This document shows, piece by piece, positions 15,691 to 43,358 of a stretch of DNA of 64,000 nucleotides; position 1 is the first letter of the stretch, and the number at the start of each line of letters is the position of its first letter. The position numbers and the translations under genes are program-made. The stretch covers positions 8,320,880 through 8,384,879 of the forward strand of contig CM028336.1 of NCBI GenBank assembly GCA_016647705.1, written 5' to 3'. Under the pieces are notes generated by a model. That model did not search any database. It saw only the letters and a list, made by a program, of their open reading frames with translations, and had not been told where the DNA came from. This DNA is from Eucommia ulmoides (Eukaryota > Streptophyta > Magnoliopsida > Garryales > Eucommiaceae).

Positions 15691-16494
15691 GCGCTCAAAA
15701 AAAGATGATTGACATCTCATTTTAAAAATAATGAAATGGAGATCATTCATGTATAAATGAATGATGCATCAATGAAGACGGTAGGAGAAATTTTTGTTTG
15801 TTTGTTTTTTTAAATATTTTTCCCGTGAAATTGTTGCCTAACTGGTTCACAAATTTAAGGAGTGTATATACATTTTTTTTTTTTTTCGTTAAGCAGGGAG
15901 TGTATATACATAATATTAACTTGGAAGATAACAGCACATTAATAGAGACAAATCAGTCCATATTTGTTAGAGAGGTCCCTCGATTCATTGAAATGCAATT
16001 GGGTTCATTCGATAATTTAGATACCCAATTAGAATAGGGCGATAAGTGCCCCTAAAAATAATCATAATAATAATAATATATGCGATATTTTAAGAAATTA
16101 GTTTCTTTGGGAAAAAAAATAAACAAAATTTCTATTCATTTTTGTTTTTCGCCCTTTTTTTCTATATTATATTTGAAAACTTTTAAACAATTTTCAAGTA
16201 CGAATTGACTTAAATCCCAAAAAAAAAAAAAAAAAAAGGTCTTGAAATGTCATGAAATGGAACTATAAATTAGATATCGGATTTTCCAAACAGGTAAACC
16301 AACAAGTGCTCGAAACGCCCCCTGTTCGGTCGGAATCCTCATTGACCGTTGCAAAATCCGGACCAACCCCTCAATTATTCTGGCAAACTCCCTGTACATC
16401 GCCATCATTTTCTTAGGAGGCGATGATGACAGGGAGGCCTTGGCATACGCTAAACGAATGTCGAAATCAACAAGACCGATTCAGCTGACAGTAT

Positions 16495-16728
16495 TTTGGT
16501 TAATTGCCTGGGAAAACATCGGAGCTAACCAGTGGGACACCGTCCTCGACATCGAGGTTTTGAAAGATTTATGGTTACCAGGTGCAAACCAAAACAACAT
16601 AAATTACCGGGTTTGGTTAATTGCCTGGGAAAACATCGGAGCTAACCAGTGGGACACCGTCCTCGACATCGAGGTTTTGAAAGATTTATGGTTACCAGGT
16701 GCAAACCAAAACAACATAAATTACCGGG
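16495..16728 (+). repeat. Perfect 117-bp tandem duplication in CHX exon 5
   Basis: Units 16495-16611 and 16612-16728 are identical base for base. The length is a multiple of three, so 39 residues starting at FWLIAWENIG are repeated in frame. The other CHX pseudogene has one copy. Identity in a gene that is otherwise decaying points to a recent event, or to an assembly artefact. Confidence 0.95.
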
Positions 16729-17018
16729 AGGAAAAAGTGAGGGATGGGGCGGAGACGGCGTATATAGTGAATGAGTTGAAGGAAGAATATGACCTCATCA
16801 TCATGGAGCGGCGCCACCGTGAGGATTTGCCGCTGCTAAGGGGGCTGACGGAGCGGAATGAGCTTCAGGAGTTGGGGCCTATCGGAGATATACTAGCATC
16901 AGAGGAAATCAAGAGACCAATTTCGGTGTTGGTGATTCATCAACCATCGTCAAGAAATGAGGAAATATTCCAATCAGTTTTCCAAACATTAGTCTTTTTT
17001 TTCTTTTTTCTTTTTTAA

Positions 17019-19719: not shown

Positions 19720-22700
19720 GGGCGCGTACTGGTAGCTCCCATTTCATGTTTTCATCTACCGATCCAACCCAATGATTTTTTTTTGCACCAATAACTCCCA
19801 TTATATTTCCCTGACCAAAATACCCCCATTAAATGTTTCAGTCCTCATTCCATATACATTCCCGCAGCAGCGCGCTCATCTGTCACTGATTTGCCGTCGC
19901 CGTCGCCATTTGTCCTTGAAACCCTAAAAATCGATCTTTGCAAATGAAATAAAAAATTGAAACACTCTCAAAACTGAAATCGAACGGCAGAAAAATGATT
20001 CTTACCATTAGTCTTGCCTTTCGCTTTCGCCGTTCGCCATTCGTCCTTCGTCGTTCGCCGTCGCCCTTCGCCGTTTCGCCGTTCATGGAACACAGTCGCA
20101 TCTGAAAGGGTAACGGTTACATGGAGATATGCAATAGCATTGTTTACATATTCCGCCCCCTATTTTAACTTTAGTTTCAAACTTTTACTTTTTTTTACAC
20201 TTCCCTCCTTGAAACCTTCACAACTTTTTTTGACCCGTCAATTGTTTTCAGTGTATGTATTGAATTTGACACTTCCTAACGTTCCCAAAATTCATAATTT
20301 AAAAATTCATGTTGAATATAACACTATCTAATCGTATTTAATAACATTGTCTAATATTTTAAAAAATCAATTTTTAGATATTCAACAATTGAAAACTATT
20401 GTTTTCTAGTGTTTGTTGAATGTAACACTTTCAAAGTACGTGTTGAATGTAACACTGACTGATTTTGTAAAAATATTCAAAAACAATATGTGTGTTGAAT
20501 GTAACATCGTCTACAGTTCTCAAAACTTAGTTTTTTGGATACTATTGAATGTAATTTGATTGAATCAATTTGCCAAATATTCAAAAATAATGTGTAAAAC
20601 TTTCCAAAAAATGCCAAAATTCAAAATCATAGTACGTGTTGAATGTAACATTGTCTAACGTGTTGAATTTAATATTGTATAATATTCTCAAAAGTCAATT
20701 TTTGAACCCATTGTTTACATGATTCAAAAACCTAATAAATTGTGCATATTCAAAAAAATTGTGCCATCAACACGCATATTCAAACAAAATAGAGTTCAAT
20801 AAACAATGTTACATTCAACACGCATATTCAAATAAATTGTCCACCAACAATATGCGTGTTGAAACCAAGCATCAGGAATCATATGACGCAGAAACGAAGG
20901 CCATTAGAAAAGTTACAGTATATTCTTGAACAAGTGTGTATCCAAGAGAACCAGAAACCATGAAAGAGCTCAGAGAAGTTACAGCCAAGCATCCACGGTA
21001 GGTTTGTTTACATGATTCAAACCCCTAATAGATTGTGCATATTCAAACAAATTGTGCCACCAACACGTATATTCAAACCAAAAGAGCTCAGCAGACAATG
21101 TTACATTTAACATATATATTCAAACAAATTGTGCCAACAATATGCATGTTGAATATAACATAGTCTACTGTAACATTGTCTATCAATCCAACCCATATGA
21201 GATATCTTCTCATCACTCCCAAATCTTTAACCGAACTAAAATTCAAACAAGTTTAAATACAAACACAAAATGTGTGACATATTCAAAAATAAATGTGCAT
21301 GTTGAATGTAACACTTCTTGATATTGCCAAAAATTCAAAATTTAAAGTACGTGTTGAATGTAACACTGTCTACGTGTTGAATGTAATACTGTCTAATATT
21401 CTAAAAAATTAATTTTTTAGAAAAATTCATCAATTGAACCCATTGTTTTCGTGTGTGTGTTGAATGTAACACTTCTAAATTGCCAAAAAAAATCAAATTG
21501 CTAAGTGTTTTGAGATGATTGAATGTGTGATCTTCACATGCCTTGTCAGTTTCTATGACCAAATAAACCTACATTGTTGAATCATGCGTTATGAACTCCC
21601 AAGTTTGGTTCTACACAATGCTTGTTAATTACTCTCTGCAAATTTTCATATTTTTGAAAAATTAAACAACGATCATTGACATTCAAGCACAAATATAAAA
21701 TCAAAATCGAATGGTTTGAAGTTAGAACTCCAAGAAATGTGAATTCACTTTGAGGCTTTTATCTTCAAGCAACGCATCAACTCCAACAAATTGTCCACTG
21801 TAATATTGTCTATCAATCCAAACAAATTTAAATCCAAAACAAAATATGTGTGTCACATATTCAAAAACAAATGTACGTGTTGAATATAACACTCCTTGAT
21901 ATTGTCAAAATTCAAAATTCAAAGTGCGTGTTGAATGTAACATTGTTTGCTTGTTGAATGTAATACTGTCTAATATCTCTCAAAATTAATTTGTTAGAAA
22001 AAAACAATTCAACAATTGAACCCATTGTTTTGGTGTGTGTGTTGAATGTAGCACTTCTAAATTGCCAAAAAAATCAAATTGAAAAGTGTTTGAGATGATT
22101 GAATATGTAGTCTTCGCACACCTTGTCAGTTTCTGTAACCAAATCAACCTGCATTGTTGAATCATGCATTATGAACTCCAAAGTTTAGTTCTGCACAATG
22201 CTTGTTAATTACTCTCTGCAAAATTTCATAATTTTGGAAAATTAAAATGCTTCATTGATATTCAAGCACAAATATGAAATCAAAATCGAATGGTTTGAAG
22301 TTTGAACTCCAAGAAATGTGAACTCACTTTGAGGCTTTAACAATCTGCAGTTTCAGTGTTGAAATGAAAAATTAAGCAAATAAAACTCAACCAAATACCT
22401 CTAGCAAATACCACTACGGGTAATTTGAGGTTTGGGAAGGCAAATATGTAAAAACAACACCGAATACGCTTAGTAAGAACTGACCTTACCATTGATCATA
22501 TCGTCGGAGAACTTACAGATGGCTTCCAATGTATTCTCAATTAGCGAAGTTCAAAATTGGTTTCAGAGCAAGCTTAGGGTTCATCAGCCAATAGGTAATG
22601 TACAGATGGTTGATGGAAGAGACTAGCCCCAAAACCCTAAAAACCGATCTCTGCAATCAAGGAATCAAAATCGAAAAAAAAAACACAAAAATCGAAAAAT

Positions 22701-24045: not shown

Positions 24046-25971
24046 GTAAGTTTCCGACATTTTGTATGAATTTATGAGTTTTTTGACAAAGTACTCCACC
24101 GCCTGTTCTCAGAATTTTGTATTAAAAATCTGGGAGCAGAAACAGAATGTCGTTTCCTGACTTGGAACAGAAACAGAAATCTGGGAACAAAAATTAAATA
24201 TCTTCTTTTTCTGTTCTCAGAATTTTGTATTAAGTGTATATTTTCTATTTCCCTGTTCTCTTTGATGGCGTTTGTTTAGTGTTTATTTAGATGGTGTTTG
24301 TTTAGTGTTTTTATTCTCAAAGAACTTGGAACATGAATGTGTTTGTTTAGTGTTTTTGTTCTACTCTCCTATTCTCTTTGATGGCGTTTGTTTGGTGTTT
24401 ATTTATATGGTGTTTGTTTAGTGTTTCTGTAATACTCTCCTGTTCTCTTTGTTAACTGTTTCTGTTTCAAAAAAAAAAAAAATCCAGAACAAATTCTGTT
24501 TTATTCTTTTTTCCAAATTTTGCATTCCAAATCCCTCTCTCTTTCTTAGGGCTTCATTTTCGTGCTTTCGTTTGATCGTGTTTATGGTGGCATGTTTCAT
24601 TGCTAATACTAATTAGTTCATTTATTTAATTTGCAGGAACAAAAGAAAAATTGTTTATGGTGGCATGAATCTAAAGGTAATCAACTCTGTGAATTTCATT
24701 TTTGATCATTGCATCCTAATTTGATAAGTTTTTATGCCCTAATTACTTTTTCTTTACTGCACTAGAATGAAAAATAAAAAAATGACTTCACACGTTCATT
24801 TTGGAAATACTCTGCAAGTTTGTGCATTCTGCTGCCTTTGTTTATTAGTTTGGAGCATCAACAAATCACTAAATAACTTGCAGAGTATTTCAAAAAGTAT
24901 GATCTACACCAACAAAAGAAAAATAACTTGCAGAGTATTTCCACATGTTCATTTTGATTCTTGATTCGAAGAAGCTTCGAAAATTAATCATTCTTTTTCT
25001 ATCTTGATGTATTTGCGTAGTTGGTGTTAAGCAAACACTGACTTAATTTGGTTTTAATGTGCTGTTCGAAACCCATAATTTTTTGTTCACTATGATCATT
25101 TAGTATGTCACCCTTTTCCTTCAAATCTCTGATGGTCCTTGGAAGTGTGGGTGAGCCTACTACTAATTCAAGTGCATGGAGGTAATTAAGTATGTCTATG
25201 CACCATCGTGTACTTTGGCTGCTTTTCTTGAGCTTCAAGGGTCGATTCATTCATCATTTATTGAGGATCTTTTGTTTAAAATTTTTGGTTTCATGGTAGT
25301 ATTATTTGTTGCAGCAGTCTTTTGTTTAAAATTTCTTACAACTATTGTCTTTTTAATTATTGAGGATTTTTCAGTTTTCAACTTTGAAAAAGTTTATTAT
25401 TTTTCTATTTTTTGGCGGATTGTTCCTTTCTTTTTTTCGGTTGAATTTCACAGGTACTCAATTCCTTCTTTGTTGTTTTTGAAATTCATTATCTGGAACG
25501 TCTCTCTCTTACAATTCTTTTGATAAAGTTTGGTTTTTGTTGTTAATGCTCAAAATTAGTGTCATTATTTATTTGTTTGTATTCATTTATTTATTTGGTT
25601 GAATCTCAGCTCTCGAATCAGGTTTAATTTGCATTTGTTTCTGTTATGTTCCCTATTTCTATTTCTGTTCCTGTTCCCTATTTCTGTTTCCATTTCTGTT
25701 TCTGTTCCCTGTTTCTGTTCTCTGTTAGAGAAATATACATGTTTCCGTTTCCGGTTTTGTAGTTTTCGGGGGTTGAATCTATCAACGAGGGAGGGAAGTG
25801 GTTGTAGAATCAGGTTAAATCTTAGCTCTCGAATCAGGTAAAATATTCTTATACCATTTAAGTTTCATGTATACACTTTATTAGCTATTTTTTTATTCCA
25901 CAATTTTATTGTTTGCTTGAATAACAAAACAAATTGATATAATTGTCCCAAATGATGATATATGTTTTACG
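24046..25971 (+). other. Intron-like and repeat sequence within the Helitron-like element
   Basis: T-rich sequence without a supported gene. It contains several copies of ggcgtttgtttagtgttt (24260-24430) and gttcc/tttctgtt runs (25630-25740), words also found in MITEs of this window. The phrase gaatcaggttaaatct...agctctcgaatcagg recurs at 25600 and 25810. Confidence 0.4.
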
Positions 25972-26002
25972 CCCGTGCCTTCAGGCACGGGTTATACACT
26001 AG
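25972..26002 (+). promoter_or_regulatory. Helitron 3' terminal hairpin and CTAG end
   Basis: CCCGTGCCT and AGGCACGGG form a 9-bp perfect stem, followed by ttataca and CTAG at 25999-26002, with T next. Stem plus CTRR-T is the standard termination signal of rolling-circle Helitrons. Confidence 0.7.
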
Positions 26003-26129
26003 TATATATATAAAAGAAAGAAAATATAAATCTAACCATATAACTAAATAAATTGAGAGAAAATTGATAATTTTATATGGTTGGAGTAGATGAGTTTCAA
26101 AATTTGGTTATAAAATTAAGGGTTTTTGC

Positions 26130-27060
26130 TCCAAAGGTCCCATTTCTTATTTAGACAACTTTTTGAGTCCTAAGTGGCATGTAGTGTTGTGAAAAGTTCC
26201 ATTTTGAGTTTTTTGACTTGAAAAGTCTCATGCTTAATTGGCAATACACTTTTCATTCTATTTTTGCCCTTACAATTATTTATAGGGAAATAAAAAGTAA
26301 GAAGTGACAGTGATAGCATCCAGCTATATATCACAGCTATATATCAACTCTCTAAGAAAGCTAAGAAAGCGATCAATGCCAGATTTGTAATCAAAATTTT
26401 TGCGGTAAAATGCAAGGTGATTTTCGACTTCGGATTGCCCTACGAATTCTTTGACTTTGGATTGCCGCTACGAATTCAGAGGCTTAATTTGGAGGGTTGA
26501 TTTGGCATAAATGTATTCTTTGATTGGTTGAGTAATTTTTGACTTTGGATTGCCCTACGACTTCGGATTCTACTGGTGAGTGCTCGTTTTGTTTCTGTTA
26601 TTCGTTTCTACCTATTCCAAGTGTTTGGATTCCACATTTCTTTGTTTATGTTATTTGTTTATATTTTTTGGGCCACATTTCATTTGTAGTTTATGCATGG
26701 AGTTCTGTTCAGTTTATGCATGGGGTTCTGTTTTGTAACTGGGGTTTTCTTCTGTTTGCAGTAGATAAACTAAGTTTCATTTTTCATGTTCGCCACACTT
26801 CATTTGTAGTTTATGCATGGGATTCTGTTTTGTAACTGGGGTTTTGTTCTGTTCGCAGTAGATAAACTAATTTTTATGTTTCATGTTTGTTAACTGAAAT
26901 AATAAATAAATAATCTGCCACTATTTCATGTTTATCAACTGAGGTTCTGTTCAGAAGATATCCACTAAGGATGTGTATTTCTCAATAGATATCTACTTAC
27001 ATTTCGAATTATGCTGTTTGTATACAAATACATTTTTTGAACAAATGTTTATACTGAATG
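26130..27060 (+). other. 5' flank of the MULE transposase gene
   Basis: About 900 bp from the left end to the first coding exon. Repeated phrases occur: tttatgcatggRgttctgttttgtaactggggtttt and gtagataaacta at 26690-26880, in two to three copies. An intron acceptor tttgcag at 27086-27092 precedes the first coding exon. The promoter cannot be placed exactly. Confidence 0.45.
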
Positions 27061-28379
27061 TAATATTATGTTTTTATTTTATGAATTTGCAGATTTGTTT
27101 TTGACAATGGGAGGATTAATCATGGTGTGTACGTACGGTGAAGAAACGTGTATGATAAAAATTGATGATGAAAGATATACATATGATGTATTACTTGATA
27201 AGTTGATTGAGCAATGGAATATGTTGCAACGTAACTCATTGCGCATATCATATTCAATCGTAGGACAGTCAAACTGTATTTTGAATTATCAAAAAGACTT
27301 TTATGCTTTATTAGAGTTAGTGAAGTTGTTAAATTTGGGATACTTGAACATTGTTGTGAAAGAGATTGTCGATGAAAGTTGTAGAGACGGGTGAGAAGAT
27401 GATGAGAGACGTCATACCCCTCCACATTATGAAGTGATAGATTTTCTTGGGTCTTATTGTGTCAACCATGTGACAAATCACTGTTTTAAGTCGTGTTCCA
27501 CCCTTATTAGAGAGGTGGGTCAACAATTTGATGGGGGAACAGATCAATTTCGTAGTGATCTAGTCAAGTATTCAATTGAGGTTGGGTTTCATTTCGATTA
27601 TTTGAAGAATGATAGTGTTCAAGTCACTACTGTATGCTGCTATAGGGATTTGACTTCCTGTAAGTGGAATGTCCATGCTAGACCTGACACTATTATTAGG
27701 ATTTTTGTAATTAGAAAGTTGGATAATGTACATATTTGTGGTGTATCATTTCGGTCATGCAAAAATGAAAGGATGAGTTCCGATGTCATTGCAAGTAAGT
27801 TGGCAGTTGAGATTCGTGGAAATCCACTAAAACATCCAATTGATGTTGTTTCTGATTTCAAGAACACGTATGGATTATAAATAACATACAATCATGCATG
27901 GCTAGGGGTAGAGAAGGCTCGGAATTTATTATATGGTGATTATATGACATCATACGACTTCTTAAGGTGGTATATTAGTGTTTGCCAATTGACAAACCCG
28001 GGCAGCCACTTTTCTTTGGAGTATGACCAAGAGTTTTGTCATTTTAAGAGAATTTTTGTGTCCTTTAATGCATGTATTGAAGGCTTCAGGTTTTGCTGGC
28101 CTATGTTGTTTATGGACGGAACATTCCTCAAGAGTAGGTATAAGGGAACGTTACTTGCTGCGCCTGCGAAGGACGGGAATGAATACTATATTACGTTTTA
28201 TTTTTCAGTTGTAGCTTTTGTTTCTATTTTTAATGATGTTTATTGTCTTTTTAGCTTGAATGTTTTCTGATTTTTACATGTTCTGGTAAATACTTTGTTT
28301 TCTCCAATTGAGTCTCAAATGCTTTGATTTGATCTCAATACCTGAGGATCTTCCCAACTAATATACGCCATTTTTAGTA

Positions 28380-28800
28380 TATTTCAGTAGATATAAGTCA
28401 ATTTCAGTAGATATCCACTGGATATGTGTCAGTTTCAGTAGATTTCTACTGAAATATTTCAAACAGACCGTCTTGGCACAAAATATGCTGTTTATGTATC
28501 CACATAGAAATGTATTCTAGTAAATGCTTTGTTTTCTCCAATTAAGTCTCAAATGCTTTGATTTGATCCCAATACATTAGGATCTTCCCAAGTAATATAC
28601 GCCATTTTCAGTCTTTTTTAGTAGATATCATTCAATCTCAGTAGATATCCACTGAATATATGTCAGCTTCAATAGATATCTACTGAATTGTTTCAAACAG
28701 GCTGTTTAGGCACCAAATATGTTGTTTATGTATCCACATAGAAAATGTATTCTGGTAAATGCTTTGTTTAGGCACCAAACAAGCTGTATTTTGATTTTTA
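28380..28800. repeat. 235-bp repeat units in the transposase intron
   Basis: Almost two units of the 235-bp repeat found also at 30.2-31.6 kb. The marker tatccacataga recurs at about 28497 and 28731. Each unit carries ttctccaattRagtctcaa, gatcttcccaa and near-palindromes based on cagtagatatcYactgaa. Confidence 0.85.
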
Positions 28801-29571
28801 CATGTTTAGGAATGTTTTCATTGGCTTTTGCGATTGTCAATGCGGAGAACGACGACAATTGGATGTGGTTTGCACAAGAATTGTCGATTATTGTTTCTAA
28901 TGAGCGGCGTATTACTTTTATTTCCAATCGACAACCAGGTTTGATTTAAGCTGTATATATTGTCTTCTTGAACTCCCCCTAATGCATTTTGTTTACATCA
29001 TTTGAAGTGTAACCTAAGAGATAAACTAAGTGGAAGGGATAATGTGTTGGAAACAAATTTGCTTCATAGACTTGATCAGTGTGCATTTGCACCAACTATT
29101 GAGGGGTTTGCCATTCATAGAAATAGACTTATTGTTGAAGGCGGGCCAAGAGTTATTTCATTTTTGAATGAGTTACCTCCTGAGAATTAGGCTGATGCCT
29201 TTTTTGTTAGACAACGATATGGCGAGATGTATTTAAATCTTGCCGAATCGTTTAACGCTTGGATTGTTAAAGCCTGACACCTCCCCCATAATGGAATGCA
29301 TTGATACAATTAGAGTACAACTCATGGACCACATATCGAGTAGAAGACTTCTTTCGATTAAGATTTCTGGTGTCATTTGCCCGTTTTGGGATAAGAAGTT
29401 ATTATAATATGTTGAGAGCGGTAGGACATGGTTGGTGGGTTTATGCTCTGAAGGGAAATTTGAAGTTCATTACCACCCATCAGTCTCAGTGGATATTGTT
29501 AATCGTACTTGTTCATGTTTATAATGGCAATTGAAAGGTTCCCCGTGTGCACATGCTTGTATTCAAAAATC

Positions 29572-29603
29572 GGGGGGGGGGGGGGGGGGGGGGGGAGGGG
29601 GGG
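29572..29603 (+). repeat. Guanine homopolymer tract
   Basis: Twenty-four G, one A and seven G in a row on the + strand. It stays in frame as polyglycine between the SWIM finger and the following domain of the transposase, where relatives have no such insert. Length is prone to sequencing error. Confidence 0.9.
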
Positions 29604-29869
29604 ATTTGTATGACTATGTTGAAGATTTCTTCAGTGTTGATTTGTATCGCAGTACATATTTAGAGGGTATTTTGTTTGTCCCTACCCTTGGAAGACCAGT
29701 TTATGACAGCGCAACAGCTATTGTGTTACCGCCGCAAACACACCGACCAGCTGCGCATCTAAAGAAGAAGCGGATTGCATCAAAAGGGGAAAAAGTAAAA
29801 CAAATTCGGTGTAGTCGGTGCAAGCAATATGCGAACCACAATCGGAAGACGTGCAAGGCTGCAATTTGA

Positions 29870-30215
29870 AGAATAGGTTGCACATTGTATATTTTTTTAG
29901 ATTTTTGCAATGTATATTTTTGCGTGCCTATATATTTTTGCAAGGTTGCAATGTATATTTTTACAAGGCTGTATGTTTTTGCAAGGCTATATAGTTTTTG
30001 AAAGGCTGTATATTTTTTGTCTAGATATCCAACAACAATGTGTATTTTTTCAGTAGATGTGTACTGGAATTTTAATATATGTTGTTGTATACATGATATA
30101 TATGGTGAAGATGCATTTTTTCAATAGATGTCTACTGAAATTTTAATATATGCTATTTTTTCATGATATATATGGTCAAGAAATTTTGAAATATGTTGTT
30201 TTATGCACCAAATCA
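29870..30215. other. Transposase 3' flank
   Basis: A T-rich stretch after the transposase stop, with five repeats of a gcaaggctRtatatttttg-type word at 29880-30020. It leads into the first tagatgtNtactg repeats. No polyadenylation signal can be assigned with confidence. Confidence 0.4.
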
Positions 30216-31650
30216 TTCTGTTCAAAAGATATATACTGAAATGTTTCAAACAGGCTATTTAGGCACCAAATATGTTGTATATGTATCCACATAGAAAATG
30301 TATTCTGGTCAATGCTTTGTTTTCTCCAATTGAATCTTAAATGCTTTGATTTGATCTCAATACATGAGGATCTTCCCAAGTACTATATGCCATTTTGAGT
30401 ATTTTTCAGTAGATATCACTCAGTTTCAGTAGATATCCACTGAATAAGTGTCAACTTCAGTAGATATCTACTGAAATGTTTCCAACAGGCTGTTTTGGCA
30501 CGAAATATTCTATTTATGTATCCACATAGAAAATGTATTATGGTAAATGTTTTATTTTCTCCAATTGAGTCTCAAATGCTTTGATTTGATCCCAATACCT
30601 GAGGATCTTCCCAAGTAATATACGCCATTTTGAGTATTTTTCAGTAGATATCATTCATTCAATTTTAGTAGATATCCACTGAATATGTGTCGTCTTCAGT
30701 AGATATCTATTGAAATGTTTCCAACAGGCTGTTTTGGCACGAAATATGCTATTTATATATCCACATAGAAAATGTATTCTGGTAAATGCTTTGTTTTCTC
30801 CAATTAAGTCTCAAATGCTTTGATTTGATCCCAATACCTGAGGATCTTCCCAAGTAATATACGCCATTTTGATTATTTTTCTGTAGATATCACACAGTTT
30901 CAGTAGATATCCACTGAATATGTGTCAGCTTCAGTAAATATCTACTGAAATGTTTCAAACAGGCTGTTTTAGCACGAAATATGCTGTTTATGTATCCACA
31001 TAGAAAATATATTATGGTAAATGCTTTGTTTTCTCCAATTGAGTCTCAAATGCTTTGATTTTATCCCAATACATTAGAATCTTCCCAAGTAATTTACGCC
31101 ATTTTCAGTCTTTTTCAGTAGATATCACTCAGTTTTAGTAGATATCTACTGAATATGTGTCTTCTTCAGTAGATATCAACTGAAATGTTTCCAACAAGCT
31201 GTTTTGGCACAAAATATATTGTTTATGTATCCACATAGAAAATGTATTATGGTAAATGCTTTGTTTTCTCCAATGCTTTGATTTGATCCCAATACATTAG
31301 GATCTTCCCAAGTAATATACGCCATTTTTAGTCTTTTTCAGTAGATATCACTCAATTTCAATAGATATCCACTGAATATGTGTCTTCTTCAGTAGATATC
31401 AATTGAAATGTTTCCAACAGGCTGTTTTGGCACGAAATATGATGTTTATGTATCCACATAGAAAATGTATTCTGGTAAATGCTTTATTTTCTCCAATTGA
31501 GTCTCAAATACTTTGATTTGATCCCAATACCTGAGGATCTTCTCAAGTAATATATGCCATTTTGAGTATTTTTCAGTAGATATCATTCATTCAATTTCAG
31601 TAGATATTCACTGAATATGTGTCTTCTTCAGTAGATATCTACTGAAATGT
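30216..31650. repeat. Tandem 235-bp satellite with palindromic cores
   Basis: Six tandem units with the marker cacatag at about 30288, 30523, 30762, 30997, 31232 and 31455 (spacings 235, 239, 235, 235, 223). Each unit holds three to four copies of cagtagatatcYactgaa-like words. Exact 20-bp palindromes TTCAGTAGATATCTACTGAA lie at 30456-30475 and 31627-31646. The array separates the convergent transposase and Ulp1 genes. Confidence 0.9.
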
Positions 31651-32684
31651 TTAACAAGATGTGTAAATATGAGTAGATATCTACTGAAATGCTTACTGAA
31701 ATGTTTGACATACGCTTTTTATGCACATACAAACACTGCCAATGTGAACAATTAATAAGAGCAGTATATATACAAACACACTGATTAACAGCCAATCTAA
31801 ATAAGAGCAGTATATATACAAACACATTGTTTCTACACATACAAACACTGCCAATGTTAATAACAGTTTCCATATCAAGATGGTATAGGGTCAACACTGT
31901 CTCCTCCTCTTTCATTTTTTTACGTTAACTCAAACTTTTGAGGCATCCATGATTTGGCCTTATCATTAAAAAATGCATTCACAATTTTTGCTCGATATTT
32001 GATCATTGCTTCTTTCACCGCTTTCTTATTTTCAAATGGCACAATTGGCACGCCCTGGGCTGTTTGGTCCATTATAAACAAAACCATTATCCCACAATCC
32101 AACCTAACATTCAAAGTTCATGCATTTGAGTCTATATATAGATTTTACATTTCATGAAAAAATGTGTAATGACATTAATACTTACGATCCGGGTATTTGT
32201 TGTGGGCTGTCCTGTACGTTTGTTAGATGAGTTTAAGTCTGCGTTATTGCTAACTCTTCACCATCTATGCGAAGATCTTTAATCATATCAACTACATAAT
32301 TTATCTACAAAATAAACAAAATTTTAAATTAAAGTATAATTATGTAACATTTAAGTTAGGAATGGAAACAAAACATGAGTTTTATTACCATCAACATTGC
32401 ATCTTTGAAGTATGGATCTCCGGTGCCGATTCTTGGTTGGAGCGAGTTATAGTGTCTCCATTCTGCCTCACTTGTGTCAAACACAAGCAGCGTCCAATGA
32501 TTTAGCCTGTTATCCGTTGTGTTGATGGGAAAGTGAATGTGTCGATAGCCACCTTTCAATGCTTCAGTGATTTGGGTATTCAAAAAAATTTCAGTTGACA
32601 CTGTTGACTTGCCCTTTACCCAATTCTATAAAAGATAGGGACAATTTATAATTCAGTTAATAGCCATAAAATAATTTAATTTAT

Positions 32685-32965
32685 TCAGTAGATATCCACT
32701 GAATAAATTGTAGAATTCAGTTGATATCCACGTACTGTTTTTAGTTAATGTAGAATTGTAGAATTAAACCTATATAATTTAATTTATTCAGTAGATATCC
32801 ACTGAATAAATTGTAGAATTCAGTTGATATCCACGTACTGTTTTAAGTTAATTTAGAATTATAGAATTAAACCTGTATAATTTAATTTATTCAGCCGATA
32901 TCCACTGAATAAATTGTAGAATTCAGTTGAATTCAGTTAATTTATTCAGTAGATATGGACATACT
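32685..32965. repeat. Three ~105-bp units with gatatcc palindromes
   Basis: Tandem units of ttcagtagatatccactgaa, ttgtagaattcagttgatat, ccacgtactgtttt and aattaaacct. They occupy an intron of the Ulp1-like gene. The first word is a near-perfect 20-bp palindrome. Confidence 0.8.
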
Positions 32966-33167
32966 GTTTTTTAATACATCAAACAAACGTATAAAACAGA
33001 CGTATAAATGTACCCAAACATACCCAGCAATAGCCTGTGATGAAGTATGAGCGGTCACCGACAACAATTCCCTCATTTTTCAATTTTTTTTTCTAATTTC
33101 GCATTCTTGTCCCTTAAGAACTCTGTGTAGCTATCTACGACCTGCAATCAATTTTCATTTTTAGTTT

Positions 33168-33202
<35 letters not shown>

Positions 33203-34439
33203 CATATGTGTGATGTTTTTTAATATATTCACTTACAAAGTTGCTTAGTTCTCCCCTGTTCAGAAGTGAAATCACATCTAGAAGAGATACAACACTATAT
33301 TCTCCATTGTATACAATTGAGCTGTGTATTATATAAGAAATGGTTAAAATTTCTTTCATGCGTTTTTATACAACTAGAATATGTAAAAATATGTTTAAGA
33401 TGTGTATTTTGTGTTACCTCGGCCCGTCGGTTTTGAAGATGGTTGTTATCTTTTGCCAATTCTCATTGGATAGTAAAGTTGCTACTTCACTTTGATGCCT
33501 CTTTGGTAGTTTGGCAACCTGTTTCTTTTCTTTTTTGTGTGTGTTGGGGCCTGATATGTGTCCAGATCGACCATTTCTTCATGCGTTCCTTTATCCTTTC
33601 TGTATTTTTTGATGTCTAAATATTCAAAACGTCTTCCTTGTTTTTCTGTGCTCGGTCTCTCTGTTTCGGCCTTTTAAACATTGAGCTTTGGCCTGGTTTT
33701 TCTGTTAATTTTCTCTTCTTTTTTTCATTTCTTCAGCTTTTTTGGGCCATGTCTTTGCATGGATTTTTTTCGGCACGTTGTTCAACTTCTTCTCTAGTAA
33801 CAAGGTCTGGAGGAGGACTGTTTTTGGCCTATTTGACGTCATTCTCCCTTTGAGCTAAAAGTAGCGTCAAATTCTTGAACTTGTTGTCCATATCCTCCTT
33901 TTGTCGAGCCATTTGTTCTGCCAATTCTTTTATTTTTTCATTACCTTCTTCTTTCAGCTCATGTCTTGTCCTTTTCAGCTCAGCCAATTCCAGCTTGAGC
34001 TTCACAATTTTCTCTCATTTTGCCTTATTTTTTCCTCTCAGTTTGATATTTTTTTTTTCTTCAGTTTTGCATTCTCGCGCTCCAAGCTCTCAATTTTGGC
34101 TTGTAGTTCCTTAGTTTCTTTTCCTATTTCACCTTCTTCAGCTCTGCTTTTCGATGCAGTCCGATTTTGTGGGTGAAATAAAGCGTAGTCATCCATGTCG
34201 GACTGTCCGGCATGTCGTGACTGAAAGGAGTACTGTGGGGGGTCTCCATAGTCTCCGGTTCTCCTTCGTCGCCATCCTCGTCTTGTCCACCTTGCTCAGT
34301 CCATGACCCTTCTTCATCGTCCTTCTTTCGATGGAATTTCTCTCATTTTCCAGCACGTTTATTTTTTAAATCATGAGCGTGTGTGATCATTTTTGTCTCC
34401 ATCCTTGTCATTTTTGGAGTATTTGGATTAACTTGTCAA

Positions 34440-35490
34440 TATGGCGTTTGTTCAGCAGATATATATGCATGTACGCAGTACGTGTGTATTTTCAAGTGGA
34501 TATCCACTAAAGATGCAGCACATACCAGTAAACCTGTATATTTTCACATAGAGTTCCATTACACATGTATTTTCAGTAGATATCTACTAAACAGCATGCA
34601 TGCAGCACATTTGTGTATTTTCAAGTGGATATCCAGTAAAGATGCAGTACATATCATTAAATATGTGTATTTTTCAGTAGATATCCACTAATTTCAGTAG
34701 ATATCTATTGAACAGTATGTATGCAGTACATATTGGTATATTTGAAGTAGATATACATGTTGTTCAGTAGATATTTACTGAACAGCATGTATGCAGTACA
34801 TATGTGTATTTTCAAGTGGATATCTAGTAAAGATGCAGTACATTTAATTAAATATGTGTATTTTTCAGTAGATATCCACTACATGTATATTTTCAGTATA
34901 TATCTACTATACAGCATGTATGCAGTACAGATGTGTATATTTGAAGTAGATATACATGTTGTTCAGTAGATATCTATTAAACAACATGTATGCAGTACAT
35001 ATTTGTATTTTCAAGTGGATATCCATTAAAGATGTTTCACATATCAGTAAACATGTATATTTTCACATAGAGTTCCATTACACGTGTGTTTTCAGTAGAT
35101 ATATACTAAACAGTATGCATGCTACACATCTGTGTATTTTCAAGTGGATATCCAGTAAAGATGTAGTATATATCCTTAAAGATGTTTATTTTTCTGTAGA
35201 TATCCACTAATTTCAGTAGATATCTACTGAACAACATATATGCAGTACATATTGGTATTTTCAAGTAGATATCCACTAAATATGCATATTATTAGTAGAC
35301 ATCTACTAAACAGCATGCATGCAGCACATCTGTGTATTTTCACATAGAGTTCCATTAAACGTGTATTTTTAGTAGATATATAATGTAATAAACAGCATGC
35401 ATGCAGTACAGATGTGTAATTTCTACTAAACAATATGTACACACTGGAACAAAGAATGAACACAGAAAAACATATAAAGCAGTACATAGA
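34440..35490. repeat. Palindrome-rich intron repeat, copy A
   Basis: About 1 kb of imperfect repeats combining gcatgtatgcagtacat, tgtgtattttcaag, tggatatccaNtaaagatg and cagtagatatcYact. An exact TTCAGTAGATATCTACTGAA lies at 35212-35231. The same combination fills the introns of copy B. Open frames here, such as 34383-34691, are translations of the repeat. Confidence 0.85.
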
Positions 35491-37261
35491 TATCCACTAA
35501 CCCTGACATCTGGGCCATTATGCAGTGTCAATTTCAGTGTGTCATTTGTCAATTTGGAAAGATCCCACTTCACAAACCTTGGAGATGCTTCCTCCTTATC
35601 TTCCTTGCGCACATTCACATGCTCGCAAAACCAATACTAGACAATTTAAAAGTTTATTAGTAATTATTCAATTTAATTTGGGTTTCGATATTAAATGAAT
35701 GTGTCAAAATGGGAATGAGTTATGTTTTGACATACTAGCAATGCAATAACACATCCTTTCACCTTCTCAGGCTGTAGGGTGTTTTGCCGAATTGATGTCA
35801 TCAACAGGCTATGAATTGCATGATGCCAACCATGGGTGTGCATTTGTTCAATATTTTCAACATACTTGTAAAGGCCAAATGCAACAAATTGTCCACTGTT
35901 GGGCAGCAAACACGTGTCTAGCAGATACAAGCACAACAAATTGACAATATGCCTAACGTCTTTATCGTTGTCACTGTCCACCGACTCCATGATTGCATTT
36001 TTTTTATGTCAGTTGTCGATAATCGCTTCCGGTCTTTGCAAATACTAGCCAAATATTCACTTTCCAGCTTTTCATAGAAGAAGTTGATGGCCTTCTCGCC
36101 ACATTTCAGTCCAAAAATCACTCTAACATCCGAAATAGCAAACTTCAAATCAACACCTCTAATTTTGAAAGACTTTGTTTCTTCGTTCCAGGTCTTCAGT
36201 ATTTGGACGATGTTGTCGTCCAATTTCTTGATCATCTCCAATGTCACTCTCTTATTCAAAATTGAATCAAAATTTGGCCAGAATGGCGTGCATTGTAGCA
36301 ATTCAGTGTGTCTTCTTGTCAGAACAATTGTGTCAAGCAACTTGTAGACAAGCTTCAACGATGATCTGTATTGTAGGTAAAATTTACCTATTCTCCGACT
36401 TGTTACTGTTGTCTTTCTTTTATTTTTTGTTGGATTTTGGGTTCTTTAATGTAGGCATCATCGAAGTCACTGTCAGACACATATACTGAAAATACATATG
36501 TTGATAGGTTAACATTCAGATGACACATATACTGAAAATACAAATCTTCATAAGTTAACTGACCAAGTACCAAAACAGTAGATACAAACACACTGAACAG
36601 CAAATCTGAACAACAAAACAGAGCAATACATTTCCAAACATTTATCAAACAGTTTCTTGTGATTGCAAACACATTGTTTGAACAAATATTTAGGAAGAAA
36701 TCTTATATATACAAACACAGCCAATGTGAACAATTAATAAGAGCAGTACACTATATAATGTTTGTCAACTGGGGTTCTGTTCAGTAGATATCCATTGAAG
36801 ATGTGTCTTTCTCAATAGATATCTACTTACATTTCGAATTATACTATTTGTTTACACAGTCCTGAATTTACCAATTAAATATATTTTTCATGATATATAT
36901 ATATGGTCAAGAAATACTCTACACCAAGTACCAAATTCACTACAGATAGTACATGATATAAACTTAAATTTGCACGAAACTGATGTCAACAAATGAATGG
37001 ATATCACCTGAAATTTGTTCTAAACGTAATCAATAGCATATGTACCTGATATCCACTTAAATATTTTGAATATAATGACTGGTATATGTCCTGCTTACCT
37101 TCTTCCTCAATCTTTTCTTTGTAGTCTTTCTCAGGTTTCTTCTCTTTCCCTCTCTCTGCCGATTGCTGTGGTTTCATTGCCCTCTTCAATGGTTTGGACT
37201 GTTTGGAACCTGATGTTTCACCATCATTCTTTCTCTTCTCTGAATATCTCGTGTTTACCAT

Positions 37262-37610
37262 TTCTTCTTCTTATGGTCTTCGGTGATTTATGAGTTTTTA
37301 AGGTTATGTTGTTCGTTCTATTTCTAGGCACCATTCACTCGTAATTTTCGGCGAATCGGAGTTCAAGGGTTTATGCTCGTACGATTCTTGCGTGAAAATG
37401 GCGGAACAAATGACAATGAGTAAACTCCAAAGAAGACATAGGGGCTATGATGACGATAAGTTTCGGTAGAAATGCAGTACGTGCAGTCGTACAGTTGCGC
37501 AGTCGCATCATGGCAGCTGTGCATTGGGCTGATCGGTGGCATGGATTTGTAAATTAAAAATCTAATTAGGGACAAAATCGACAATTCCATTTTCATGGTT
37601 TAATTATCCA
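37262..37610 (-). promoter_or_regulatory. 5' flank of Ulp1-like copy A, former element end
   Basis: The sequence upstream of the start codon is alignable with 42722-43100 upstream of copy B. Shared pieces are ttcttcttatggt, tgcgtgaaaatggc, and gagggacaaaatcgacaat with cattttc at the outer edge. In copy B this strip runs on to the MULE right end. Copy A therefore appears to keep an old element end now buried inside the element. Confidence 0.55.
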
Positions 37611-38190
37611 CTACCATTTAATTGGTTTTTTTATTAGTTCTGTTAAGGTGATATCAACTGTATTCGTGTCTTGTTAAGTAGATATCTACTTACAGGCAAA
37701 AAATATGATGTGTTTGTACATTTAATTGGTTTTTTTTTTTTGTTCAGATGATATCAACTGAAAGTGTCTTGTTAAGTATATATCTACTTGTCGATATAAA
37801 ATATGATGTGTCTATACATTTAATTAGGTCTTGAATGATATACATGGTCAGCAAGTAACAAGTTCTAATAATTACCTTAATGATATATTGAGTCAATAAA
37901 TGGATGGCACAAAGTTCTAAATTTTGTAGAAACGGACACTGAAGGTGTTTGTTCACTGTAGAAATAACCCTAGTTCTCTCCAACACTGTTGGGTTCTGTT
38001 AAGATGATATCAACTGAATAGGTGTCCATTTTAAGTAGATATCTACTTAAATGTATAAAATATGATGTGTTTGTACATTTTTGTAGTGTCAATGAACGAT
38101 GGACATTTAATTGGGTTTTTAATGATATACATGGTCAATAACACACATAAACTTTAATTTTGTATATACAAACACATTGTTTCAACAATT
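37611..38190. other. Internal spacer with gatatcaactg repeats
   Basis: T-rich sequence with several copies of ttctgttaagRtgatatcaactgaat and agtagatatctacttaaa. It lies between the old end of copy A and the RBR fragment. No gene. Confidence 0.5.
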
Positions 38191-38192
38191 TT

Positions 38193-38691
38193 TTGGAGGC
38201 TTACACATCAAATAATATCCACAGCACGCAAATTTAATGGATGAACATATGGGCAAAACAACTGCGACTAGAGGCACTGAAGTTATATTACAGAGTTCTT
38301 CAAGCAATGTGCACTGCAGAAGCCCAGATTTTGAATGCCAATAATCTAACTTCACTGCTAACCAAAGAGAGGTTCCATAGATACATGCTTGCTTGTTCAG
38401 TAGAATTGGTTCTTGCCACACATAAGACGGTAGATATGTTGTTCCAGCAGTGATCTCAGTAAGGTAATAGAAAGTTTCATTAGACATGAGGAAAGTTTTC
38501 CCAGAGAATTAAGGAGAATTAAGGGGAAAAGGGCTCGTTAATGTACAATTCTTTGACAATTGCGAGGTCGGTCTTCTCTGTAGAAATAATTCATCTTGGC
38601 TTTGTGGCTCATCCAATGCCAGCTCTGAATGCAATTGCAATGCATATCAACTTGTCTTGTGGAGGCTTACACATGAAATAATATCTACAGC
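38193..38691. repeat. Direct repeats bracketing the RBR fragment
   Basis: The word ggaggcttacacatSaaata followed by atatcYacagca occurs at 38194-38225 and 38659-38690, on either side of the RBR sequence. A third, weaker copy is at about 38846-38876. The right copy overlaps the RBR word tgtggagg. Confidence 0.8.
38241..38665 (+). pseudogene. Captured fragment of a retinoblastoma-related (RBR) gene
   Basis: The + strand translates to [40 protein letters not shown] and LVLATHKTV. It then continues in other frames with DLSKVIESFIRHEESFPREL and [15 protein letters not shown], ending [12 protein letters not shown]. This matches the A-pocket start of plant RBR1 ([31 protein letters not shown]...). 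RBR is the plant cell-cycle regulator that binds E2F. Relative to the family, about 27 bases plus one are missing near 38446 (VLERTGITAF lost), and there is a gap after PRELRR. The fragment has lost its frame. A direct repeat of about 32 bp, ggaggcttacacatSaaata, starts at about 38194 and again at 38659. No intron is evident in this stretch. Confidence 0.8.
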
Positions 38692-39038
38692 AGTAGATAT
38701 ATTCAAAACAGTATATACAAACACACTGAACTAAACAAGCAATAGGAGGTACAAACAACGCAGTACATTTCATGAAACAATTTATACATATTCACCTAAG
38801 GATTTGTAATTCCAATTAGATATCTACTGAGATGTTAAACGAATTACACATCAAATAATATCCACAACACTCAAATATATATACGAAATAGTATATACAA
38901 AACAATTTCTACATCTTCATATTTAGGGCTAACAATGTCCCTCTCTTCACCACTGTTTTTCATTTACTCAAACTTTTGGCCTCCTGCGGTCCTTTATCCT
39001 TTCTGTCTTTTTTGATATCCAAATATTTGAAATCATCT

Positions 39039-39075
<37 letters not shown>

Positions 39076-39889
39076 CTGTGCTTTGTCTCTCTGCTTCAGC
39101 CTGTTAACCATTGAGCTTTTGTCTGTTTTTTCTGTCAATTTTTTCTTCTTTTTTTTTTCGCTTCTTCACCTTCTTTGGGCCTAGTCTCTGCATAGATATC
39201 TTGGAGACGCTGTTCAGTTTCTTCTACAGAAACAGGGTCCGGAAGAGGACTGTTTTTGGGTTATTTGACCTCATTATCCCTCTGAGCTAAACGTAAGGTC
39301 AAATTCTTGAAGTTCTTGTCCATGTCTTCCTTTTGCCGAACCATTTGTTCGACCAATTCTTTTATTTTCTCCTCACCTTCCTCTTTTTTTAGCTCGTCAC
39401 TTGTCCTTTTCAGCTCAGCCAATTCCATTTTTAGTTTTGTAATTTTCTCTCATCTTTTCTTATTTTTTCCTCTCAGTTTTATATTTTTCTATTTCAACTT
39501 TGCGTTCTCGTGCTCCAAGCACTCAATTTTCGCTTGTAGTTCTTCATTTTTTTTTTCTTATTTCACCTTTTTTACCCCCGCTTTTAGATACAGTTCTAGT
39601 TTGTGGCATGAAATACGACATATTCATCTAGTCCGGATTGTCCGGAACGTCATCAGTGAAATGAGTACGGTAGGGGGTTTCCATACTCTCCGGTTCGCCT
39701 TCGTCACTGGCCTTCTTATACTCTTCACCTTCTTCACTCCACGATTTTTCTTCATCGTCTTTCTTTTGTTCGAATTTCTCTCCTTTCCCAGCATACTTAT
39801 TTTTTAAATTATCAGAGTGTGTGATCATTTTTGTCTCAGTCCTCATCATTTTCATCGTATTTGGATTCACTTGTCAACATGCCGTTTGT

Positions 39890-40530
39890 TCAGAGAATAT
39901 CACTAAATAGATTTGTAATTTACATATGTGCATTTTCAGTAGATATGTACTAAACAAAATTGTTTTTTCGAGTACGTTTCCATTACACGTGTATTTCTAG
40001 TCGATATCTACTAAACACCATGTATGCAGTACACATGTGTATTCTTAAGTAGATATGTACTGAACATTTAAGTAGATGCCAAACATAGGTGTGCATTAAG
40101 TAGATATCCACAAAAGATGCAGTACATTTCACTAAAGATGTGTATTTTGAAGTAGGTTTCCATTACACATGTTTATTTTCAGTTGATATGTACTAAAACA
40201 GCATGTATACAGTACACATGCATATTTTTAAGTAGATATCTACTGAACATTTTCAGTAGATATCCACTGAACATTTAAGTTATATGCAATACATTTTTAA
40301 GTTGATATCTACTGAAACTGTATACAATATGTATGCAGTAGATCTTTAGTATTTTAAAGTAGATATCCACTATCAACTAGACAAATTTGTAATTTCAAGT
40401 AGATATACATTACATACGTGTATTTTTCAGATGATATCTAGTAAACAGATTTGCAATTTCAAGTAGATATCTACTAGATTTGTAATGTATGCATTACATA
40501 CAATGCTTGAGAGGAACAAAAAATGAACTA
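39890..40530. repeat. Palindrome-rich intron repeat, copy B, first block
   Basis: Mixed repeats of cattttcagtagatatYtact, ttaagtagatatctactgaa and gtatgcagtacat, as in copy A. The core agtagatatctact is itself a 14-bp palindrome. Confidence 0.8.
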
Positions 40531-41519
40531 TAAAAACCTATAAAACAGTACATATCCACTAACCCTAATATCTGGTGCATTATGCCCCTCATTCAGTGCG
40601 TTTTTCAGTGTGTCCGTTGTCAATTTTGAGAGATCTCACTTGACAAACTGTGGGGATGCTGCCTCATTATCTTCCTTGATGACATTAACATGCTCGCAAA
40701 ACCAATACTAGACAAAATGAATAGTTTATTAGTAATTATTCAATTATTAACAACTTTAAATAAGTTTGGACGGGTCGTACCAGCAATGCAAGAACACACC
40801 CTTTCACCTTCCCAGGCTGACGGGAGTTTTGCTAAATTGATGTGATCAACAAGCTATGAATTGTGTGATGCCAAGCATAGGTGTGCATTTGCTCAATATT
40901 TTCAACATACTTGTAAAGCCCAGATGTCACAAACACTCCACTGTTGGGCAGCAAACACGTGCCTAGCAGATACAAGCACAACAAACTGACAACATGGCGA
41001 ATGTCTTCATCGTTCTCACTGTTCACTAACCCCATGATTGTATTTTTTATGTCAGTTGTCGACAATCGCTTCCGATCTTTGCAAATACTAGCCAAATATT
41101 GACTTTCTAGCTTGCCGTATGAGTAGTTGATGGCCTTATCACCACATTTCAGCCTAAATATGAGTTTCACATCCGAAACAACAAAACTCACATCAACATC
41201 TCTAATTTTGAAAGCATTTTTTTCTTCGTTCCAATTTCTTTATCATTTCCAAAGTCACTCTCTTGGTCAAAATAGAATAAAAAATTGGCTAGAATGGCAT
41301 AAGATGTAGCAAGCGTCTATGCGTTCCAGTCAGCACAATGGTGGTCAGCAACTCGTACAGAAACTTCAACGAAGATCTATATTGTAGGTAAAACTTACCA
41401 ATTCTTCGGTTTGGTTCAGTTTTAGCATTCCTTTCATTTTGTTTTTTTGATTCGGGTTCTTCTCATCAGGGTATCATCAAAGTCGCTATTAGAACCAATT
41501 GTTCACATGCAAAAAAAGA

Positions 41520-42330
41520 AAGAAAGAAAGATTTAAAACAGTATGTATGTACTAAAACAACATGCATGTACTAAAACAGCATGTATGCAGTACACATGCA
41601 TATTTTTAAGTAGATATCTACTGAACATTTAAGTTGATATCTACTGAAAATGTATAAAACATGTATGCAGTACATCTTTAGTCTTTTCAAGCACATATCC
41701 ACTGGTGTTTAGTATATATCACTAAAGATATATATTTTCAAGTAGATTTCCATTACATATGTGTATTATCAGTTGATATGTACTAAAACAGCATATACTG
41801 AACATTTAAGTTGATATCTACTGAATATTTTCAGTAAATATCTACTGAACATTTGAGTTGATATCTACTGAAAATGTATACAACATGTATGCAGTACTTT
41901 AGTATTTTCAAGTAGATATCTACTGGTGTTTAGTAGATATCACTAAAGATGTATATTTTCAAGTAGGTTTCCATTACACATGCTTATTTTCAGTTGATAT
42001 GTACTAAAACAACATGTATGCAGTATACATGCATATTTTTAAGTAGATATCTACTGGATATTTAAGTTGATATCTACTGAACATTTTTAATAGATATCCA
42101 CTGAATATTTCAGTTGTATGCAGTACATCTTTAAGTTGATATCTATTGAAAATGTAAATGTATACAACATGTATGCAGTACATCTTTTGTATTTTCAAGA
42201 CATAGGCTGATGAAACATATATTGAAAAAACACATGTTGATAGGTTAACATTCAGATGATATCAACTGAATATACAGTTTTTCTCAGAGGATATCCACTT
42301 AATATTGCACGACACAGTTTCACAAATCAA
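41520..42330. repeat. Palindrome-rich intron repeat, copy B, second block
   Basis: The same words recur. A longer unit of about 190-420 bp repeats twice or more (aaaacagcatgtatgcagta, catgcatatttttaag, tagatatctactgaacattt and aagttgatatctactgaa). It lies in the first introns of copy B. Confidence 0.8.
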
Positions 42331-43358
42331 TGAAGATTAACTAAACATTTTTTCTGAACTAATTCAACAATTCATGAGTTTTGATATCCCACACATTCTC
42401 CCTATGAGACGTAATCATTGGGATGATAGTAGATGATGTCCAATCCAGAGAATATTTAGATGATATCCACTTACATTTGCACGATATCAACAGTATATTG
42501 AGATGATATTCACTTAAAATTTTTGAATATAATGACTAGTATATATCCTGCTCACCTTCTTGCTCAACCTCTTCTTTGTAGTCTTTGTCTTGTTTATTCT
42601 CCTTCCCTCTCTCCGCTGAATGTTGTGGTTCCATTACCCTCTTTGCTGATGGTTTGGACTGTTTGGAACCTGACGTTCCAATATGGTTCTTTTTCTTCTC
42701 TAAAGACCGCGTGACCACCATTATTCTTCTTATGGTTTTCGGCACCACGTTTCAATTTCTAAGGGTTTTGTGGTTCGTTCTTTTTGTAGGCATTGATCGC
42801 TTCCAATTTTATGGTGAAAATCGGTGGAAATCGACGACAATCGACGAAAATCGTCCGTTGGATATCTAGGGTTTACGAGAGTTTGGTTGCGTGAAAATGG
42901 CAAAAATTGAGATTGATCATGACGATAGTGTTGCAGGGATTGATGATGATGAGGGCAGGAAGGTCGTGAAGGCATGTGCAGGGGTCGCGTCGTGCTCCAG
43001 CAGTCGCGTCTGGTGACGTTGTGCGGCGGGTGTAAGGAGTGGTATTCTTTTATAAATTACAAATCTTCTGAGGGACAAAATCGACAATCTCATTTTCGTG
43101 GGGATTTTAGGCTGATCCAAAAACCCATAGTTCTTGAAAATGGATTTTTTTGCCCCTTTGGAACTACATAATTTTTTTCCCTAAAATTAATAATGAATTT
43201 GATAGCTGAAAAGTGGAAAGGTACTATAGCCATGTGATGTTTTTTACTGACATTTTTCAAAAGGGCTGCACAGCCATGTGAAAAGGGGTTGGAACTAAAG
43301 ACTAGAAGTGACAATTGCTGACAAAGGTTTTTGAGATTCTCCTCCATCACTGATTGGT

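Follow-up and report, generated by a model that had tools for sequence, protein, structure and literature searches.

A 17-kb Mutator-like element of Eucommia ulmoides with paired DUF1985 genes and a dense non-coding palindrome that may serve as an anti-silencing target

The 64,000-nucleotide stretch analyzed here (the window; C12:8320880-8384879 of the Eucommia ulmoides assembly, a 946.7-Mb genome of 391 contigs) contains a large Mutator-like element (MULE) without terminal inverted repeats (TIRs), which carries a transposase gene, two related DUF1985 genes on the opposite strand (genes A and B), a fragment of a RETINOBLASTOMA-RELATED (RBR) host gene and many near-identical copies of a 20-bp palindrome. 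Its bounds and coding parts are listed below; exons and introns, here and throughout, were inferred from homology and not from transcripts.

26120 to 43181, plus strand: whole element, a non-TIR MULE of 17,062 bp, delimited by shared ends, duplications and unfilled sites
26111 to 26119, no strand: left copy of the 9-bp target site duplication TAAAATTAA, exact; the joined flanks match six other places in this genome
43182 to 43190, no strand: right copy of the target site duplication TAAAATTAA, exact
27041 to 29869, plus strand: MURA-like transposase gene (PF03108, E 2e-9; PF10551 weak)
31920 to 37270, minus strand: gene A (homology, profile matches)
38182 to 38734, plus strand: captured RBR (A-pocket) fragment, not an open gene (RB_A, PF01858)
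39261 to 42751, minus strand: gene B (homology, profile matches)
26120 to 26720, plus strand: left terminal region, a genomic repeat (of 82 matches, 31 start at bases 1-5 and the others are internal pieces)
42581 to 43181, plus strand: right terminal region, free of palindromes and finishing TTTTTTTCCC (genome matches, right-end loci)

The element begins GGGTTTTTGC and finishes TTTTTTTCCC; read inward, its two ends start GGGTTTTTGC and GGGAAAAAAA and have in common an initial GGG and the word TCCAAAGG. A preliminary description of this DNA had set the edges at 26120 and 43181 on the strength of the exact duplication of TAAAATTAA at 26111-26119 and 43182-43190, and had named an empty site and further copies with the same ends as the means of checking them. 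Both are found, and with the break in similarity at the right end they agree on these bounds. The element's left and right flanks, joined through one TAAAATTAA, served as queries of 82 and 600 bases, unfilled sites being judged from identities and coordinates within the window's own genome. The 82-base join gave 13 matches, six of which cross the junction (98% over 80 bases, 100% over 74, 96% over 80, 96% over 80, 96% over 72 and 91% with 79 bases for 80); these reach base 74-82, and five show no net length change. The others comprise five on contig C7 that end 7-9 bases beyond the junction and two that are the window's own flanks. With the 600-base join, five other places cross the junction at 85-94% identity (among the best 40 of 1,211 candidates scored), and four of these depart from the query in net length by 5-9 bases. 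The insertion was into a repeat, and paralogous unfilled copies therefore exist.

The terminal 601 bp on the left gave 82 matches (from the best 40 of 152 candidates scored), 31 of them starting at base 1-5, and those on the right at least 40 (best 40 of 314 candidates scored). Nine further whole copies possess both ends, 12.9-21.3 kb apart, some with extra inserts (e.g., ~3.9 kb in the copy C10a). At 30 right-end loci (30 of the 40 matches, the window's own included), pairwise identity is 0.56-0.89 in the last 100 bases, 0.51 in the next ten, which correspond to the AT-rich duplication, and 0.27-0.29 beyond; similarity stops at the claimed edge.

A comparison of flanking 9-mers extends the duplication to the family. 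Own left and right 9-mers of the ten copies (window first) agree at 9, 8, 8, 3, 3, 8, 9, 7, 9 and 9 of nine positions, i.e., at 7-9 positions in eight of ten copies (seven of the nine outside the window) and exactly in four, one of the 8/9 agreements being a run of T. Agreement in 90 cross-pairs between copies is centered on 3-5, with only two pairs at 9 (the window against C6a, the same 9-mer in another flank); because own 9-mers agree far better than these cross-pairs, the duplication is more than chance. Its 9 bp lie within the 8-11 bp of Mutator elements and MULEs. The two copies lacking a matching 9-mer, C10a and C10b (3/9 each), have both flanks in common and may represent one insertion copied by segmental duplication with an edge altered. 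Their mismatch, the large size of the element and the extra inserts seen in some copies would suit a composite of nested insertions lying by chance between two AT-rich 9-mers; such a composite would not, however, recur in nine further copies that have both ends and, deletions aside, keep the genes in the same order, nor would its joined flanks align across the junction at six further places. We regard it as refuted by the unfilled sites and shared ends, with a negligible residual probability, and the element as a single insertion with a 9-bp duplication.

Terminal inverted repeats were considered and rejected. Inverted similarity between the terminal 200 bp fell below the best of 200 shuffles in all six copies tested, local inverted alignments scoring 21-35 against shuffle maxima of 31-39 (window: 35, against a shuffle mean of 23 and maximum of 39). 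Since this is within the shuffle range we class the element as a non-TIR MULE; the common GGG start and shared word that had been noted earlier stand, whereas the "weak inversion" of the ends does not exceed chance. The median Kimura two-parameter (K2P) distance among the 30 right ends is 0.098 (435 pairs; closest pair 0.05) with a transition/transversion ratio of 2.6, an old burst that is transition-rich as expected of methylated DNA.

The sequence immediately left of the element (25820-26027) is itself repeated at many genomic places, with matches ending at ~26003-26027. It includes a GC-rich hairpin followed by CTAG at 25999-26002, which we take to resemble a Helitron 3' end, and the longest junction-crossing matches start at 26003, directly after the CTAG.

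The transposase proposed within these bounds is confirmed by its PF03108 match (E 2e-9), whose 37.4 bits exceed the cut-off of 25 and mark a MuDR-type protein; PF10551, the MULE catalytic domain, reaches 15.4 bits against a cut-off of 27.6 in an interrupted frame. An in-frame stop breaks the gene between 27395-27880 and 27881-28270, with further frames at 28972-29190 and 29525-29869; the window copy is accordingly decayed. Transposase homology is present in all ten copies, and a word from the gene occurs at 103 genomic places.

On the opposite strand, gene A comprises a first exon (within 37270-37004), a DUF1985 region (36445-35691), a coiled coil (34295-33829) and a Ulp1-like end (32625-32356 and 32117-31920). 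Gene B repeats the first three of these (first exon within 42751-42536, DUF1985 at 41462-40832, coiled coil at 39449-39261) with a DNA likeness of 72-80%. DUF1985 is matched with E 2.6e-8 in the joined frames of gene A (34.4 bits) and E 7e-6 in gene B (26.5 bits), against a cut-off of 35.1, which is exceeded in the family copy C4a (37.1 bits); a VANC-type DUF1985 gene is thus present at the level of the family, with the window's own genes below cut-off. Genome-wide there are at least 105 DUF1985 matches (best 150 of 580 candidates scored), 34 of them above cut-off, and none in 14 control genomes. Fifty of the 105 fall into 25 same-strand pairs 4.2-5.9 kb apart, from which it follows that the two-gene layout is common in the family. 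All ten copies retain homology to the transposase, Ulp1, the first exon and at least one DUF1985, and eight keep both DUF1985 genes; C5a is without gene A's DUF1985 and the RBR fragment, which is what recombination between A and B would leave, and C10c is without gene B's.

The Ulp1-like domain of gene A (31920-32625) is sub-threshold, at 17.3 bits, with HW and DCG visible by eye in it (though not retained in every copy), and searches of solved structures (PDB) with this region gave no match. Its gene runs opposite to the transposase in all ten copies, as had been described for the window. Gene B had been read as a second, damaged Ulp1 gene; a related second gene is indeed present, but because it has DUF1985 and no Ulp1 domain that we could find in the window, calling it a damaged Ulp1 gene is too simple. 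At the gene B place of the other copies that keep it, a Ulp1-like remnant occurs only in C10c (15 residues). The label "passenger" also needs revision, the DUF1985 genes being probably core anti-silencing genes of the element. NG86 dN/dS estimates for 12 pieces (0.43-0.96) were set aside for mixing two paralogues and registers, as was a value of 0.57 for the RBR piece, where the frame is meaningless.

The host-gene fragment reported between these genes proves to be RETINOBLASTOMA-RELATED, with an RB_A match (PF01858, E 5e-18) at 38238-38453 on the plus strand. At least 40 places (best 40 of 104 candidates scored) match the 561-bp stretch, the window's own and 39 at 86-94% identity. Distances to the transposase word, computed over 100 of its 103 places, put 32 of the 40 within 40 kb downstream of a same-strand word; 30 words are concerned, 26 of which lie 9.6-12.1 kb from the RBR place. 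The fragment is present in nine of ten whole copies and was probably captured before the family spread. Pack-MULEs likewise carry captured host gene fragments; here, in contrast, the element retains its own transposase (homology in ten of ten copies) and other genes, and so is not a Pack-MULE. Our literature search returned no report of RBR capture by a MULE.

The non-coding DNA between and within these genes is densely filled with near-identical copies of the 20-bp palindrome TTCAGTAGATATCTACTGAA, tandem arrays included:

26900 to 27040, no strand: stretch upstream of the transposase, two palindromes
28281 to 28769, no strand: inferred intron of the transposase gene with two 235-bp repeat units, four palindromes
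29870 to 31919, no strand: convergent gap from transposase to gene A, with a 235-bp array at 30221-31662, fifteen palindromes
32671 to 32979, no strand: 103-bp repeat array, inferred intron of gene A (repeat comparison)
34448 to 35423, no strand: array in an inferred gene A intron, fifteen palindromes within 34296-35729
37615 to 37830, no strand: 98-bp repeat array in the interval from gene A to the RBR fragment
39930 to 40560, no strand: array in an inferred gene B intron, eleven palindromes within 39874-40758
41546 to 42210, no strand: array (221-bp unit) in an intron inferred for gene B, twelve palindromes within 41463-42535

Searched as AGTAGATATCTACT with up to two mismatches, the site occurs 67 times in the window and always inside the element (26953-42147), bearing out the dense palindromes of the preliminary description. 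The introns of gene A contribute 2, 15 and 2 of these, the interval between gene A and the RBR fragment 3 and that between RBR and gene B 1, which with the stretches listed above (2, 4, 15, 11 and 12) accounts for 67 of 67. Each of the ten copies has 50-80 sites, 13-25 of them perfect, where 0-0.4 would be expected per simulated sequence (first-order Markov, five simulations each). Base frequencies over 878 sites (up to three mismatches) extend the palindrome to TTcAGTAGATATCyACTgAA, which is near two-fold symmetric. The exact 16-bp core CAGTAGATATCTACTG is found at 1,968 genomic sites and the reversed control pattern at none; absence of a control word of the same make-up from a 947-Mb genome makes this an unusually clear candidate target. 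A literature search on the core returned no report.

Placement of the palindrome is as distinctive as its number. None of the 649 near-matches in the ten copies falls over coding-homology pieces, against 156 expected if sites were uniform (the RBR fragment not being counted as coding), so that the family has a short, element-specific motif at high density in its non-coding DNA. Sites bound by Mutator transposases lie near element ends, and a motif so far above chance, and clustered among the places listed, could be a transposase-binding or transposition site instead of a site for an anti-silencing protein. We consider this improbable: no palindrome lies in the last 600 bp of the 30 right ends or in their 1.5-kb flanks (the 1.5 kb inside those last 600 bp hold 360), the first one comes 587-880 bp from the left end in ten of ten copies, and most sites in the window occupy intergenic DNA and inferred introns.

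With the palindrome masked, the arrays fall into five groups (235-bp, 103-bp, 98-bp, the A/B intron arrays and a 108-bp pair) between which nothing matches at E 1e-3. The palindrome is thus carried by five or more repeat units that are otherwise unrelated, and from the lack of similarity among masked arrays we conclude that it is the site, and not one repeat, that has been repeatedly amplified. This recurrence, together with the avoidance of coding homology (0/649) and of the ends, speaks against the palindromes being functionless, the incidental product of slippage and gene conversion acting on a repeat-prone sequence. That explanation draws on the evident tandem arrays, on a palindrome not clearly more conserved than its surroundings in the 235-bp unit, and on one array that has seemingly reached at least 153 units; on balance we judge it unlikely.

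The array in question lies on C1. The 85 distinct palindrome sites among the matches listed form three clusters, with none isolated, and one of these runs from C1:12,306,131 to at least 12,339,759 (at least 33.6 kb) with 66 exact sites, almost all of them spaced by multiples of ~219 bp, which implies at least 153 units. It starts 3.8 kb past a DUF1985 match (C1:12,301,986; 28.2 bits, below cut-off), where the gap between transposase and gene A would be expected. A transposase word stands at C1:12,442,916 on the expected strand; should this word, at a distance of 137 kb, be part of that element, the array would extend to ~134 kb. Exact sites average 7.5 per copy (ten copies), which over 103 transposase words accounts for ~770 of the 1,968 and leaves ~1,200 unaccounted for; more large arrays or related families therefore probably exist. 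A runaway array of this kind, if real, could seed a satellite or soak up anti-silencing protein.

We next consider what these features resemble. The Arabidopsis proteins VANC21 and VANC6 work by way of short motifs, often tandemly repeated, that lie in introns and in intergenic and terminal non-coding DNA; their action causes hypomethylation, and DUF1985 is present in the VANC proteins (PMC5735166). RNA-directed DNA methylation re-silences the non-coding regions of VANDAL elements (PMC10398659). A review groups Ulp1-bearing VANCs as KIUs with the same mode of action, and KI-MULE-like elements have already been tied to VANC anti-silencing in print (PMC13317346).

Like the present family, VANDAL21 (Hiun) and VANDAL6 combine a DUF1985 gene with a short element-specific non-coding motif that is partly tandem (PMC5735166), and VANDALs have a 9-bp duplication with TIRs absent in many, or short and degenerate (PMC6446971). 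They differ in that the 20-bp palindrome here takes the place of YAGTATTAY or AGTTGTMC, and in that copies here measure 12.9-21.3 kb; DUF287 was not seen in the frames scanned. The KI-MULE/Kaonashi (KIU) elements of Arabidopsis and the Ulp1 MULEs of melon, rice and grapevine are likewise non-TIR MULEs with a Ulp1-like gene opposite the transposase and three coding genes (PMC2528002, PMC13317346). Going by their descriptions, they are set apart from the present element by its two DUF1985 genes, only one with a Ulp1-like end, its palindromic motif arrays and its RBR fragment. Against the described VANDALs, the palindromic target, the usual two DUF1985 genes, the RBR fragment and an array of apparently at least 33.6 kb are the distinguishing features; in the accessible parts of the literature, a palindromic target this long, two DUF1985 genes per element, an RBR passenger and an array of satellite size are not described, and a search aimed at satellite-like expansion of VANDAL tandem repeats found nothing on such an array in those parts. 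A search combining DUF1985, MULE and Ulp1 returned no report.

Membership in the VANDAL/KI-MULE clade is likely on this anatomy, and the element may work as such anti-silencing elements do. Because its DUF1985 gene, element-specific motif, non-coding placement of that motif and tandem growth match the Arabidopsis arrangement, we put at about 0.7 the probability that this is a large non-TIR MULE of the KI-MULE/VANDAL kind in which a VANC-like system de-silences its own family through the palindrome. One or both DUF1985 proteins would be VANC-like and bind the palindrome, probably as a dimer given the two-fold symmetry of the site; DNA methylation would be removed from copies with many sites, and the family would be expressed and mobile, with silencing maintained elsewhere in the genome. 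Sites would multiply by tandem duplication of any unit holding them. Only tentatively would we go further, to a transposon family addressed by a 20-bp palindrome, read by a paralogous DUF1985 pair (one with a Ulp1-like end) and with arrays running to satellite DNA, a fuller scheme that is possible but against which we would place the odds.

Several observations weigh against a VANC-like system acting through the palindrome. The VANC21 motif is a one-directional 9-mer and not a palindrome. Both DUF1985 matches of the window are below cut-off, gene A just (34.4 against 35.1 bits) and gene B further (26.5); one DUF1985 gene is missing from two of ten copies (gene A's in C5a, gene B's in C10c); and the Ulp1 match falls short of its family cut-off (17.3 against 20.7 bits) and is found in two of five copies scanned. 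No consistent third-codon-position excess is seen across copies: such a tendency shows in gene A, in the first half of its DUF1985 (0.113 against 0.064 and 0.079) and in its first exon, but it is absent from most other pieces, and the non-coding controls are equally variable. Within the 235-bp unit, palindrome columns are barely more conserved than the remainder (0.949 against 0.923, rank 29-32 of 216 windows). Raw adjacent spacings in the window show a strong phase of ~10-10.2 bp (R 0.50, n = 69); tandem units, however, are not independent, and the phasing is not strong once each spacing is counted a single time (R 0.14, n = 61).

Anti-silencing by VANC proteins is experimentally established in Arabidopsis, and the present family would add ~100 copies with an exact palindromic candidate target, opening to direct tests the recognition of targets, the role of Ulp1 (gene A against gene B) and the way in which arrays grow into satellite-like DNA; a sequence-specific demethylation tool is a possible further use. 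Sasaki et al. (2022) reportedly described numerous eudicot systems of this sort, in which the density and helical period of the motif matter.

Elsewhere in the window, two repeat-dense stretches (20200-22400 and 52100-53900) are mutually inverted, share the words TGTTACATTCAAC / GTGTTGAATGTAA and could represent a further motif-dense element. Related stretches at 12959-17015 and 55376-59922 are 74-78% alike in DNA and contain frames that by eye we take to be plant cation/H+ exchanger (CHX) genes, and frames at 361-3079 look by eye like a Copia-like polyprotein.

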